The notes below the pieces were generated by a model. That model was not told the DNA's origin. It saw only the letters and a program-made list of their open reading frames with translations, and ran no database searches. Positions 3,739-9,841 of a DNA stretch of 33,740 nt are shown here, piece after piece. Positions within the stretch are counted from its first letter, which is position 1. Each line of letters starts with the position of its first letter. Made by a program: the position numbers and the translations under genes. The stretch covers positions 1-33,740 of IMG/VR virus record IMGVR_UViG_3300017613_000318; one strand, given 5' to 3'. This DNA comes from a virus.

Positions 3739-3741
3739 ACT

Positions 3742-3747
3742 ATTATA
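3742..3747 (-). promoter_or_regulatory. Putative minus-strand -10/late element for uvsW
   Basis: On the minus strand TATAAT is followed by AGT and then ATGATG, inside ATACTATAATAGTATG, a near-perfect palindrome (ATACTAT-A-ATAGTAT). It closely resembles the element before the gene at 899. A transcript starting 7 bases downstream would begin at the second ATG. Promoter activity is inferred. Confidence 0.45.
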
Positions 3748-3748
3748 G

Positions 3749-3768: not shown

Positions 3769-4485
3769 ATGCAATCTAAAGAAGATATAATCAACGATAT
3801 CCTTAAAGATATCCCAACAGACACTACGATTCGGGTTGAACTACCCTCAGAGTGTAAAACATATAATATTGACGAGTCGGATATTATAACACTTCGACCC
3901 ATGACATTCGAGGATGAGAAGAGTATTGTGGGGTCTAAAGGGGACGACCCAGTTAACCTTCTTCTCGACAGATGCTTGGAAGGCATTAAGGTTATGGACC
4001 TTCTTCCTATGGATAAGCTTTACCTTATCATGAAGCTTAGGGAAATTTCATACGGAGACGACTACGATACCGTTCTTATTTGCGATCACTGCAAGGCAGA
4101 AAACCCTACAAAAGTAAAGCTTTCTAGCCTGAATGTTAACCCTGTACCTGACGATTTCGTAGACCCTATCACAGTATACTTGCCTACTGTAAAAAGGGAA
4201 GCAAAAGTAAGGCTACCCAGGGTTAGAGACGAAAAGACTTTATCAGATACGACAACTTCGTTAAATCAAATCTGGAGATTTGTTCAAGAAATTGATGGGC
4301 ATTCGGATAAATCCATTGTTGCCGCCGTTGTAGACAAGCTTCCATTGGTAGATATAAAGACCATTCTAAAGGCTTTCGATACCGATTATGGCCTTGATAC
4401 CAAGGTAAAGCTTCAGTGTAAAGATTGTGGGGGGGTCTCAATTCTTGAGCTACCAATAAACTCAAATTTTTTCGGCGTGAGCTAG
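3769..4485 (+). CDS. 26: T4 gp26-like baseplate/tail assembly chaperone
   Basis: The 238-residue product has the hallmarks of the T4 gp26-type 'T4 baseplate protein' family: LRPMTFEDEKSIVG (42-55), then a helical segment DPVNLLLDRCLEGIKVMDLL with LPMDKLYLIMKLREISYG (79-96). Two CxxC pairs, C105/C108 and C217/C220, probably form a split zinc ribbon. In T4, gp26 helps assemble the baseplate hub but is not kept in the finished virion. The start is supported by AGGAG 8 bases upstream. The last codons carry a slippery sequence leading into a 61-codon -1 extension. The normal product stops at 4483-4485. Confidence 0.75.
   Translation: MQSKEDIINDILKDIPTDTTIRVELPSECKTYNIDESDIITLRPMTFEDEKSIVGSKGDDPVNLLLDRCLEGIKVMDLLPMDKLYLIMKLREISYGDDYDTVLICDHCKAENPTKVKLSSLNVNPVPDDFVDPITVYLPTVKREAKVRLPRVRDEKTLSDTTTSLNQIWRFVQEIDGHSDKSIVAAVVDKLPLVDIKTILKAFDTDYGLDTKVKLQCKDCGGVSILELPINSNFFGVS
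4464..4473 (+). promoter_or_regulatory. Putative -1 programmed frameshift site
   Basis: In the frame of the gp26-like gene the bases read tcA AAT TTT TTC. This contains two overlapping X-XXY-YYZ slippery heptamers, A-AAT-TTT (4464-4470) and T-TTT-TTC (4467-4473). A -1 slip at either leads into CGG CGT GAG and 57 further open codons. The normal stop is 10 bases downstream. A weak hairpin (ATCAA/TTGAT, 4486-4499) follows; no strong stimulatory structure is obvious. Confidence 0.7.
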
Positions 4486-4655
4486 ATCAAGTAATTGATT
4501 TAGATTCTCTTCTTCTAGAAGCCTATATATTGGTGAAGCGGGCTGGATTTAGTTATTCGGATGTAAAAGCCATGACCCGTACAGAAAGAACTATCTTTCT
4601 AAAACTCCTCAAAGAAGACGTTGAGAGGGAAGCAGATGCAATTAAACGGAACTAG
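4470..4655 (+). CDS. -1 frameshift extension of the gp26-like protein
   Basis: After a -1 slip the gp26-like protein (234 residues to the site) would gain 61 residues, giving about 295. The extension begins FRRELDQVIDLDSLLLEAY, continues LVKRAGFSYSDVKAMTRTER and ends AIKRN before TAG at 4653-4655. It is helical, charged and protein-like. The frame opens only at 4449 (TGA at 4446-4448) and has no ATG until codon 35 of the extension, so independent initiation is unlikely. Without it, about 150 bases would be the only sizeable noncoding gap in the region. The GFSYSDV...ER layout resembles the short C-terminal T domains of tail assembly chaperones, which recruit the tape measure (inference). Its end overlaps the next start by 20 bases. 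Confidence 0.7.
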   Translation, partial: FRRELDQVIDLDSLLLEAYILVKRAGFSYSDVKAMTRTERTIFLKLLKEDVEREADAIKRN

Positions 4656-5586
4656 CTTAGTAGACAGAAACAATAGACCCACTGTATTACAGAAGGTGGG
4701 CCTTCGAGCCTTTTTCATAAATGATGGCGAGTACGTTGATCCGTATGATATTAGTGCGGTCACCATCTTTGACAAGTCTGCTAACTTTACCCCAAGCACT
4801 ATATTAGATGACAACTTGATTGCATCTGGTATTGACACTAGTATAGTTCGTATGAACTTTGCTCCTTCGGGAGAGGATGGGGGGTTCCCTGCCCAAGACC
4901 CATCAGGCTACAATCCTAGCACCGACATCACTTCTACTAGCGGAGTATATCGCATTGCTAAAGGAGAGTATGTTGTCGTTCTTGACGGCACCCAAAACAT
5001 AAGTGGAGTTTATAACTTACATGGTGATTCTACGGTAATCCCCAATACGGCTAGTGCGGTTAAGGATTACATTGATGTCTGGACGGTTATGTTGGCTGAG
5101 GGTTCAACCTACCAATCTCTTATAAACGACTTCCACCTTTATGATGATACTTTCTTTGTTACTACTCAGCCCATAATTCTAACTGCTAGTAATAAACTAA
5201 TAAACAAACACATAGTCTTGGGGTCTAAAGAGAATATCAAAGTTACCACTGAAATCACAATCAACAACAGAGATATAGACAGCAGCGTAAAAAACCTCTT
5301 CAAAGATTCTGCGGTCATCAATCCTAAGATGCTAATTGAGAAGCTTAACGAGGGCACCCCCACACTACCTGCTCACGTTACTGTTTCTGGTTACGCCGAT
5401 ACTAGCGCACTCATAGACATCACCTCTGACAACACAATGGTATTTAATTTTGATACCACTACATTAGCCACGCACGCTAATGTGGCAGACTTTGGCGGCT
5501 TGATCGGTCAGTACAGGATAACTGTTAAGTACAATCTTCTTAACGAAGTAATTGTCACGCCACCTCTATACTTCACAATAAGTTAA
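4636..5586 (+). CDS. Probable virion structural protein, unknown
   Basis: The product is 316 residues from ATG 4636 (MQLNGTSLVDRNNRPTVL), preceded by GAGGGA at 4624-4629. An in-frame TTG at 4621 is a poorer choice because it has no ribosome-binding site. The protein is rich in beta-strand patterns, Thr/Ser/Asp and Asn, and lacks Cys, a signal peptide and membrane segments, like many phage virion proteins. I see VSGYADTSALIDIT (~257-270) and a C-terminal strand GLIGQYRITVKYNLLN (~294-309) but cannot name a family. It lies between the gp26-like chaperone and the primase, with its 3' end overlapping the primase end by 14 bases. A tail or neck accessory role is plausible but not shown. Confidence 0.75.
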   Translation: MQLNGTSLVDRNNRPTVLQKVGLRAFFINDGEYVDPYDISAVTIFDKSANFTPSTILDDNLIASGIDTSIVRMNFAPSGEDGGFPAQDPSGYNPSTDITSTSGVYRIAKGEYVVVLDGTQNISGVYNLHGDSTVIPNTASAVKDYIDVWTVMLAEGSTYQSLINDFHLYDDTFFVTTQPIILTASNKLINKHIVLGSKENIKVTTEITINNRDIDSSVKNLFKDSAVINPKMLIEKLNEGTPTLPAHVTVSGYADTSALIDITSDNTMVFNFDTTTLATHANVADFGGLIGQYRITVKYNLLNEVIVTPPLYFTIS

Positions 5587-7346: not shown

Positions 7347-7611
7347 AAGGTCTGTAGATGTCTATATCTATTGTATAGAAGAAGTTAAGAACCTGCTCTT
7401 GTGAGTATTTACATTTCTTAGTAAGATAATTAAAAAGCATTTCCTTCTTAATAGGCTTCTGTTTATTCATTGAATCAAGAAGTTTAAGCTGGAAATGCTT
7501 TATAAATTTTTCACTATACTTATGTCTCCACTTCTCTGTAAAGGCATTACTTAGTGTATGATTTATTAAATCAAGAAAGTCTACTATCTCTATGTCTATG
7601 TTTTTGTTCAA
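7315..7611 (-). CDS. Small hypothetical protein, 98 aa
   Basis: No family is recognised with confidence. The protein is Lys/Phe/Ile-rich and predicted helical (MNKNIDIEIVDFLDLINHTL, then EKFIKHFQLKLLDSMNK). Its C-terminal part, KKCKYSQEQVLNFFY followed by DIDIYRPFI, loosely recalls the helical layout of the T4 late co-activator gp33, but the similarity is weak and I would not name it. The only upstream start is TTG at 7611 with AGG about 8 bases before it, which is unusual; the next in-frame ATG is far downstream. Its 3' end overlaps the nuclease gene by 32 bases in the opposite orientation. Confidence 0.6.
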   Translation of the reverse strand: MNKNIDIEIVDFLDLINHTLSNAFTEKWRHKYSEKFIKHFQLKLLDSMNKQKPIKKEMLFNYLTKKCKYSQEQVLNFFYTIDIDIYRPFIFGSLKISS

Positions 7612-7620
7612 TGTTTAACC

Positions 7621-7636
7621 TATATACTAATATATA
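7621..7636. promoter_or_regulatory. Symmetric AT-rich element between divergent genes
   Basis: TATATACTAATATATA has perfect 6-bp arms around CTAA and lies in the 35-bp gap between the 98-residue minus-strand gene and the long plus-strand tail operon. Either strand offers -10/late-promoter-like hexamers (TATATA, TATATT). It is the natural candidate for the promoter of the ~26-kb tail operon. Inferred. Confidence 0.4.
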
Positions 7637-7646
7637 AGAGATTGGA

Positions 7647-7988
7647 ATGAGGTTTTTTTCAGCACAAATTAAGAAATTTTTGTCTCAAGTCGCAGTATCT
7701 AGCGACAAGAGAGTACATATTGTTCCTAAATCTTCAGCAGGTATTACCCCAGGGGATCTAGTATTCTTTAGGTATTTTAGTAAATACGTTGTATTGCTTG
7801 TGGTATCTCCTGTGGTGAAAGATGCAAAAACGGGTAATAGGTTGTTCACAGCATTTAAGGTCCCGTTCTCTGGGAATTACACTTCAGATTCCCTCACTGA
7901 TCTATATAAAAATAAGGAGCTTCCTACAAAAAATTACCGGACATATATATTGTCTAAGATTCAGGGTCCTATCAGGAGGATAAAGTAA
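7647..7988 (+). CDS. Small conserved-type phage protein, 113 aa, unknown
   Basis: First gene of the tail operon. The basic protein begins MRFFSAQIKKFLSQVAV and has a compact beta core, ITPGDLVFFRYFSKYVVLLV followed by NRLFTAFKVPF, then a basic tail QGPIRRIK. The GDLVxFRY...LxV layout suggests a small barrel-like domain, but I cannot assign a family. A weak GAG (7638-7640) sits 6 bases before the ATG. The stop overlaps the tape measure start (TAATG), so the two are probably translated together, suggesting a role in tail assembly. Confidence 0.7.
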   Translation: MRFFSAQIKKFLSQVAVSSDKRVHIVPKSSAGITPGDLVFFRYFSKYVVLLVVSPVVKDAKTGNRLFTAFKVPFSGNYTSDSLTDLYKNKELPTKNYRTYILSKIQGPIRRIK

Positions 7989-9841
7989 TGGTATTACAGA
8001 CAGCTATAGAAGGTTTAAATGCAACCGTAGGTAAGGCTATTGGAAGGATAGAGAATGCCATAGCCATATCAGATCAGGCGCAAAAGGCAAGCTTGGCTTT
8101 GGGTCAAAGTCTAGCTGGAGGAAGTCGCACTCTTGATAATTCAATACGAGATCTAAAAGGCTCTTTCGGAAATACACTCCAAGCTCAACTGGTTGCGTTG
8201 AATTCTGGACTTCAGGGGAATGTCGCAGGGATAGGTAAACTTATAAACCAGCAGCAGCTTACCGGGGGCAACTTTAAAGCTACTGCTAGAAGTTTGGCTA
8301 CTTTTGAGTTAGCTTTAGGACTAACAAAAGATCAGCTAAATAGTTTAGCTGTAGCGACTATAGAGACCGGAAAGAAGTATGGAGTTAGCACAGATAAGCT
8401 AATAGCTTCTATCGACTCCTTCTCAGAAAATTTCGCTGCTTTAGAGTTGGCTGGGATGGGAGAAGGATTTACTAATGCTGCTATGAAAATATCGGCTAAA
8501 GTAGGCCCAGCGGTAGACAAACAGTTAGGATCTGTATTCAGGTTTCTTACTGATCCTTCGGTGGAGGCTTTGGCTAAAAAGAGTGCTTTAGGGCTAGGAA
8601 ACTTTATGGAGAACTTGGGACCAAACCCGACCTCGGCTGCTCTTGAGGCTGGTCTCGCACGCGCAGCGCAGCACATTGAAAACATGACGGGCGACACTAG
8701 TAAGTTTTTCGCTGGTACGGGGATAGTTGAAAAACGATTCGGAAAAGTTGCTACTGATATAGTTATCGTCAACAGAGCTTTAAATAAGAGGCAAGAGATA
8801 GAAGCACGAAATCAAGGAGAGTTCTTTGATCAGATTTCCGTGTTAAAGAATCAGATCTTAGCGCCTTTAGATAAGTTGTTTTCTGATGAACTGTTCCCCA
8901 AAGTAAAAGAATTTGTTGATTTGCTTGGAAGAGTAGCAAAACCTATTATTGAAAACATAGAAAGTAGAATAAGAAAGTTCTTGTCTGATCCCGTGCTGGC
9001 TATAGGTAATTTTGTAAAGAATTTAGACAAAGTTCAAGTAGGGTTTACTAAAGTAATAAATGGTATGATTACTGGTGTAAATATTATGACTCGGGGGATG
9101 CTCAAGTTCGTAGAACAGTTAAACGAAGTTTGGACAATAGACATGCTTCCTGATTCTGCGGTAGAAATGTCTAAGGCAATAGAAAAAGAAAGATCTGGGG
9201 TGTCCGCAAAAACGGGCGTAATAGCAGAACTAAAAGAGTCGATAAGTCTCCTGAGGACAGGCGACCCCCTCGACGGGTTTTTAGATGAAGACCAACTTAT
9301 GACTGCCCTTGTGAACGCTCTAGAAAGAGTACCTGATGATATACAAATTCAGGTCAGCAACGCAATGCTTCACGGAGGGAAAACTAAAGAGGAAGCAGAT
9401 CAGCTACGGATCAAACTTCTACAGGACCACCTAGTTGATTTAACTAAGGATAGAGATGCTGCTTCTACAGCACTAAAAAAACAAGAAGCTATTTTAGCTG
9501 ATTATTTTACGCATATGGCCGACAAAGTAGAACTTGAGCACTTTGAAATTATAGAAAATAGATTTGCTAAGGCACATGGAGAGATGTTAGGAGACATTGC
9601 TAGTAACACCGCAGACACGGCAGAGAACACAAGAAAGGAAGATGACCTTGCTGACAGTCTACCCTTCATGTTAGACCAGTCAATTATTTCCTTAGGAGAT
9701 GCTTTACTAGCTATAACTAGAAGAGCAGTAGAGGAGCCTGACCCTCTACAAGAAGCCATGCTATCTGAGCTACAATTTCAGTCCCGTTCAATAATGTCAT
9801 CAAGAAATATGCTAGTGCCTAGAGGGGCTAGACTTAAGTAA
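7988..9841 (+). CDS. Tail tape measure protein (gp29-like role)
   Basis: The 617-residue protein is almost entirely amphipathic helix, rich in Ala/Leu/Lys/Gln, with heptad-like stretches throughout (for example IENAIAISDQAQKASLALGQ, LAGMGEGFTNAAMKISAKVG). No enzyme motif is seen. The size is close to T4 gp29 (590); at about 1.5 angstrom per residue it would give a tail of roughly 90-95 nm. The position just before tube-initiator, gp53, hub and spike genes, and downstream of the gp26-like chaperone, supports the role. A strong AGGAGGA ribosome-binding site lies in the end of the upstream gene. Sequence identity to gp29 is not evident, so the call is structural and positional. Confidence 0.75.
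   Translation: MVLQTAIEGLNATVGKAIGRIENAIAISDQAQKASLALGQSLAGGSRTLDNSIRDLKGSFGNTLQAQLVALNSGLQGNVAGIGKLINQQQLTGGNFKATARSLATFELALGLTKDQLNSLAVATIETGKKYGVSTDKLIASIDSFSENFAALELAGMGEGFTNAAMKISAKVGPAVDKQLGSVFRFLTDPSVEALAKKSALGLGNFMENLGPNPTSAALEAGLARAAQHIENMTGDTSKFFAGTGIVEKRFGKVATDIVIVNRALNKRQEIEARNQGEFFDQISVLKNQILAPLDKLFSDELFPKVKEFVDLLGRVAKPIIENIESRIRKFLSDPVLAIGNFVKNLDKVQVGFTKVINGMITGVNIMTRGMLKFVEQLNEVWTIDMLPDSAVEMSKAIEKERSGVSAKTGVIAELKESISLLRTGDPLDGFLDEDQLMTALVNALERVPDDIQIQVSNAMLHGGKTKEEADQLRIKLLQDHLVDLTKDRDAASTALKKQEAILADYFTHMADKVELEHFEIIENRFAKAHGEMLGDIASNTADTAENTRKEDDLADSLPFMLDQSIISLGDALLAITRRAVEEPDPLQEAMLSELQFQSRSIMSSRNMLVPRGARLK

Follow-up and report, generated by a model that had tools for sequence, protein, structure and literature searches.

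The gp26-like gene of an uncultured phage of the T4-type myophage lineage very probably encodes a tail assembly chaperone (TAC) made in two forms, TAC-N and TAC-NC, by -1 frameshifting. The gene is located in a 33,740-nt stretch of viral DNA (IMG/VR record IMGVR_UViG_3300017613_000318, positions 1 to 33,740), hereafter called the window. Coordinates of the relevant features are collected in Table 1.

In their 2022 work, Vladimirov, Gautam and Davidson are said to have described frameshifting as apparently conserved in several T4-like groups, T4 using genes 26 and 51. A frameshifted chaperone in a T4-like phage is not new in kind; it was proposed in 2022, as cited in PMC10885494 and PMC12846349, in a paper on the TACs of T4-like phages (Vladimirov, Gautam & Davidson, Virology 2022, 566:9-15, doi 10.1016/j.virol.2021.11.003). 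With reference to this paper, PMC12846349 mentions that TAC-N genes of T4-like phages contain polyT signals for -1 frameshifting, and PMC10885494 mentions some T4-like phages that do without frameshifting and encode the long form in a fused gene apart from the short TAC gene. According to the original prediction, a gp26-like protein made in two forms would tie the T4 system to the lambda G/GT scheme. The tie is supported by the present analysis; it is not new, judging from how these two articles cite the 2022 paper. Added here are an uncultured clade in which start codons that could compete with frameshifting are nearly absent, a variant in SP-15-like phages with the extension in the +1 frame, and a synonymous-invariant 12-nt element, GAAGCCTATATA.

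Table 1. Features of the gp26-like locus and its surroundings in the window.
Feature	Position	Strand	Remarks
ACTATTATAG, putative promoter	3739..3748	+	conserved upstream of the gp26-like gene
gp26-like gene, proposed TAC-N (short form)	3769..4485	+	238 aa; zero-frame stop TAG 4483-4485
Slippery heptamer A_AAT_TTT	4464..4470	+	upstream, optional; in phase for -1; 50/64 loci
Slippery heptamer T_TTT_TTC, proposed core slip site	4467..4473	+	in phase; T_TTT_TTY in 64/64 loci
-1 frame extension, proposed TAC-C, gp51 C-terminus-like	4470..4655	+	61 codons and TAG 4653-4655; predicted long form 295 aa
Candidate stimulatory hairpin	4479..4508	+	starts 5 nt after slip site; common to close relatives only
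12-nt element GAAGCCTATATA	4518..4529	+	codons GAA GCC TAT ATA inside the -1 extension
Next gene, conserved tail-region protein	4636..5586	+	same position in relatives; ATG 4636, GAGGGAAG upstream
Candidate tape-measure protein, presumed client	7988..9841	+	617 aa; position, length, fast divergence

Slip site, open frame and their conservation

The gp26-like reading frame ends with the codons TCA AAT TTT TTC GGC GTG AGC TAG, nine bases separating T_TTT_TTC from the stop. The two slippery heptamers are nested, and slippage on either would yield the identical 295-aa product. Read from 4470 to 4652, the -1 frame encodes FRRELDQVIDLDSLLLEAYILVKRAGFSYSDVKAMTRTERTIFLKLLKEDVEREADAIKRN, and it overlaps the next gene (probable start ATG 4636) by 20 nt. 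The earliest possible starts within it are TTG 4530, GTG 4533 and ATG 4572, all without a Shine-Dalgarno sequence. These coordinates bear out what the original prediction had described: nested in-frame heptamers shortly before the gp26-like stop, a -1 frame open for 61 codons and leading to a product of about 295 residues, no usable start in this frame, and an end inside the start of the next gene. In 21 genes of the window, 65 in-frame X_XXY_YYZ heptamers were counted, and only at 4464 and 4467 does the -1 frame run on for at least 20 codons past the stop.

Taken singly, the extension could be a decayed gene or a gene split by a sequencing error, with no programmed event: one 57-codon open -1 frame beyond a stop arises by chance with p ~0.02, which is low yet not negligible for one sequence. 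The same junction, however, is present in 64 contigs and in cultured phages, under purifying selection. Because of this conservation, decay or error is already refuted as an explanation and keeps practically no probability.

The locus set consisted of the window and 63 IMG/VR relatives with 36-96% protein identity, among which 55 loci were unique. T_TTT_TTY was found in phase, 10-25 nt upstream of the gp26 stop, in all 64 loci. The -1 frame was open for 53-63 codons, with a similar extension sequence pattern, in every one of them, which removes a chance origin of the open frame. At the slip position, TTT followed by TTC or TTT stands after an NNT codon in 64/64; TTC accounts for 22% of other Phe codons. 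Since A_AAT_TTT was retained in only 50 of the 64 loci, the T-run is taken as the core slip. Both heptamers had originally been proposed as slip sites; of the two, T_TTT_TTY is the invariant slip and A_AAT_TTT is optional. In several members (e.g. L048 and L053) a stop in the -1 frame lies directly 5' of the T-run, so any shift must happen in the run or later.

Selection on the extension was assessed by a codon-based analysis, giving a median dN/dS of 0.235 in the -1 frame versus 0.81 and 1.72 in the shifted frames; these values are approximate, synonymous sites being near saturation between distant pairs. Read in the -1 frame, the extension evolves under purifying selection. Of the checks proposed beforehand, the comparison of related phages showed heptamer and -1 frame kept in every window relative (64/64), and the ratio of synonymous and non-synonymous changes pointed to purification (dN/dS 0.24). 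Neither a closed -1 frame nor a lost heptamer, the pattern named beforehand as refuting, was found in any window relative.

A start codon is absent from the first 20 extension codons in 48 of the 55 unique loci, and frameshifting is therefore the evident route to the extension. Cyanophage annotations imply another route: ribosomes would re-initiate downstream of the gp26 stop and translate the extension from a small gp51 gene of its own, without fusion. The P-SSM2 -1 reading frame, annotated as gp51, has an ATG two bases past the gp26 stop, and in KVP40 a short gp51 is annotated separately. Re-initiation is nevertheless very unlikely, given the scarcity of early starts in the window clade. Moreover, these groups keep an invariant, slippery T-run where Phe-Phe could be encoded with TTC, as it is in T4, and T4 gp51 is a physical fusion of both parts.

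Protein identity, gene neighbourhood and proposed function

The gp26-like protein matched PF12322 (T4_baseplate, E=1.8e-19) and phrog_150 (baseplate hub, E=3.2e-24). The extension matched the C-terminal half of the phrog_634 profile (baseplate hub assembly catalyst, T4 gp51; E=0.0013). Using hhalign, it was aligned with the cyanophage -1 extensions (E=1e-5) and with the T4 gp51 C-terminus (E=0.0017). As judged from these profile comparisons, the extension and the T4 gp51 C-terminus (phrog_634) are homologous. The alignment with products encoded next to gp26 that had been suggested at the outset thus yielded homology both to this C-terminus and to the cyanophage extensions.

AlphaFold2 models of the window gp26 (pLDDT 87) and of a T4-like gp51 (pLDDT 84) have a similar order of secondary-structure elements. 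The gp51 model carries three added C-terminal helices (residues 206-248), corresponding to the -1 extension, which is itself predicted to consist of about 60 residues of helices. In Foldseek searches, the window gp26 model matched gp26 of SP-15, Aeromonas phage 25 and CP220, and the viral gp26 proteins to which the two models were linked are partly the same. No relevant PDB match to the window gp26 was obtained by sequence or by fold. The T4-like gp51 model also matched, weakly, the fold of BFVD entry A0A0A0YVM8 (Citrobacter phage Moon, 545 aa), a much longer protein that is already named 'Tape measure chaperone' and may be a fusion.

Related contigs of the same group carry Gp23 (8 of 14) and the T4 portal (11 of 14), and the window, a 33.7-kb fragment, is therefore from the T4-type myophage lineage. 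A scan of genome contigs for a host clue gave only five matches, all distant. In most of the clade the gene order is helicase(-), TAC(+), unknown(+), primase(-), exonuclease(+), 113-aa(+), 617-aa(+). The 617-aa protein encoded from 7988 is likely the tape measure, as suggested by its position, length and fast divergence (25-37% identity among relatives); profile searches gave no family match for it. Four genes lie between the TAC and this candidate in the window and its relatives, whereas in SP-15 and Listeria phage LIS04 the two are adjacent, the gp26-like gene lying between the tail tube and a large tail protein (annotated as tape measure in LIS04). The ORF at 899-2149 combines two domains, a family-2 glycosyltransferase and a methyltransferase.

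In lambda, the short form G binds the tape measure, and the extension of the long form GT recruits tube subunits. For the window, most ribosomes would stop at 4483 and release the 238-aa TAC-N. A fraction of the ribosomes at TTT-TTC of T_TTT_TTC, possibly also at AAT-TTT, would shift back by one base, read past the stop and append TAC-C, giving the 295-aa TAC-NC; both the slippage and the proportion of ribosomes undergoing it are what we infer from the locus. By analogy with lambda G/GT, the short form would coat the tape-measure protein (probably the 617-aa protein) and keep it soluble, and the extension of the long form would recruit tail tube subunits.

The long form could also be made for another purpose, the pair serving baseplate-hub assembly, the classical role of T4 gp26 and gp51, and not tape-measure chaperoning. 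A T4 review lists both proteins as hub assembly chaperones, gp51 being essential and of unknown function (PMC3004832), and the roles overlap in T4, where the hub is assembled together with the tape measure (gp29). Against a hub role stand the position of the gene beside tape-measure genes in SP-15 and LIS04, the architecture with two forms and the assignment as TAC published in PMC10885494 and PMC12846349, and we consider it improbable.

Candidate RNA signals and promoters

The 60-nt fold from 4479, which includes the candidate hairpin, has a free energy of -13.7 kcal/mol (z=-1.6), and strong downstream hairpins were seen in several members (the window, L007 and L061). In pseudoknot-free folding (RNAalifold and single-sequence folds), no downstream pairing shared across the clade was detected. 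An Rfam search gave no match, and no SD-like stimulator was found upstream of the slip. The lack of a conserved downstream RNA structure and of such a stimulator counts against the reading as a frameshifted chaperone, as does the location of the gene away from the presumed tape measure.

The element GAAGCCTATATA sits 44 nt downstream of the slip. Its codons are nearly synonymous-invariant in unique loci (GAA 46/46, GCC 50/52, TAT 51/54, ATA 52/52), and the codons flanking it use several synonyms, in relatives reaching down to 36% protein identity. No conserved pairing that explains this invariance was found. A late promoter for the next gene would be the simplest guess. A tentative and rather unlikely proposal is that the element acts as a novel type of frameshift stimulator, or as a late promoter inside the extension by which TAC-NC synthesis is coupled to expression of the next gene.

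Upstream of the gp26-like gene, ACTATTATAG is probably the promoter of this phage group for the operon, to judge from its conservation; CTATTATAG precedes gp26 in nearly all relatives inspected. As a shared promoter of the tape-measure operon, CCTATATA was rejected: it is present in close relatives only, others having a TATATAATA-like sequence. Motifs resembling TATATAATA recur in relatives upstream of the ORF at 7647 (window region 7600-7647).

Comparison with T4, cyanophages, SP-15-like phages and lambda

In P-SSM2 and S-PM2, TTTTTTC lies ten nt before the gp26 stop and the extension is in the -1 frame; the P-SSM2 annotation lists the two parts separately as gp26 and gp51. IMG/VR relatives of P-SSM2 gp26 carry TTTTTTC at the same place in 80/80 cases, and in two of these 80 cyanophage-type loci the contig stops before the extension can be read through. 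TTTTTTY is also present in phiM12, KVP40, Aeh1 and HTVC008M, and a weaker -1 extension without the standard heptamer was found in ViI. The roseophage NC_012697 was left out of the phage comparison. In huge phages of the LR756511 type (L069, L190-L192), T_TTT_TTC precedes the gp26 stop by 43-70 nt, and from this heptamer the -1 frame is open into a gp51-like extension; L070, L193 and L194 have the extension in the +1 frame instead. That cyanophage gp51 has only ~20% of the usual length and resembles the gp51 C-terminus was noted in 2010 (PMC3037559). Many annotations of PF12322 'baseplate hub' and short 'gp51' proteins in cyanophages and metagenomes probably denote one TAC with a -1 frameshift.

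No standard heptamer is present in ViI, in SP-15-like phages or in the T4 group, the last of which has gp51 as a second, full-length paralogue. Among eight phages tested, two PF12322 genes (26 and 51) were found in T4 only. Their products are paralogous (hhalign E=2.3e-15), and T4 would produce the same pair from them, 26 giving the short and 51 the long form. Wherever gp26 of the T4 group was readable, Phe-Phe is kept as TTC TTT after a codon ending in G or A, which is not slippery. The T4 group is thus a natural control, the slip being kept where needed and lost where a fused paralogue exists. T4 gp26/gp51 and the window locus share the fold, the short/long logic and, by homology, the gp51 C-terminus that corresponds to the -1 extension; they differ in that T4 has two divergently transcribed paralogous genes, with TTC TTT and no slip in gp26. 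The window clade supports the published view in which T4 genes 26 and 51 correspond to the two members, short and long, of a frameshift pair.

SP-15, LIS04 and Streptococcus phage GXN1 (L066 4700-4920, L067 and L068) have a homologous short form and a gp51-like C-terminal extension that is likewise out of frame. Unlike in the window, this extension is in the +1 frame, and the gp26-like genes share NCC CGA near the stop in place of a conserved in-phase T-run heptamer. This arrangement suggests a +1 (or -2) frameshift chaperone in these phages of Gram-positive hosts, which is not annotated as such.

Lambda gpG/gpGT offers an analogous arrangement, a short chaperone with a minor frameshifted long form and a near-terminal -1 slip. 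The lambda slip sequence, G_GGA_AAG, is a different one, and the likeness lies in the working scheme, without a sequence or fold match here.

The closest counterparts are the T4-like TAC-N/TAC-NC pairs of cyanophages and KVP40, which have in common with the window clade a PF12322 short form, a gp51-like extension in the -1 frame and a poly-T slip just before the stop. The window clade differs from them in being uncultured, in carrying the nested A_AAT_TTT in most members and in its unusual gene order, with helicase, TAC, unknown, primase and exonuclease genes ahead of the tail genes. It also differs in that its gp51-like extension mostly lacks a start codon of its own, which makes it a clean natural case with frameshifting as the evident route.
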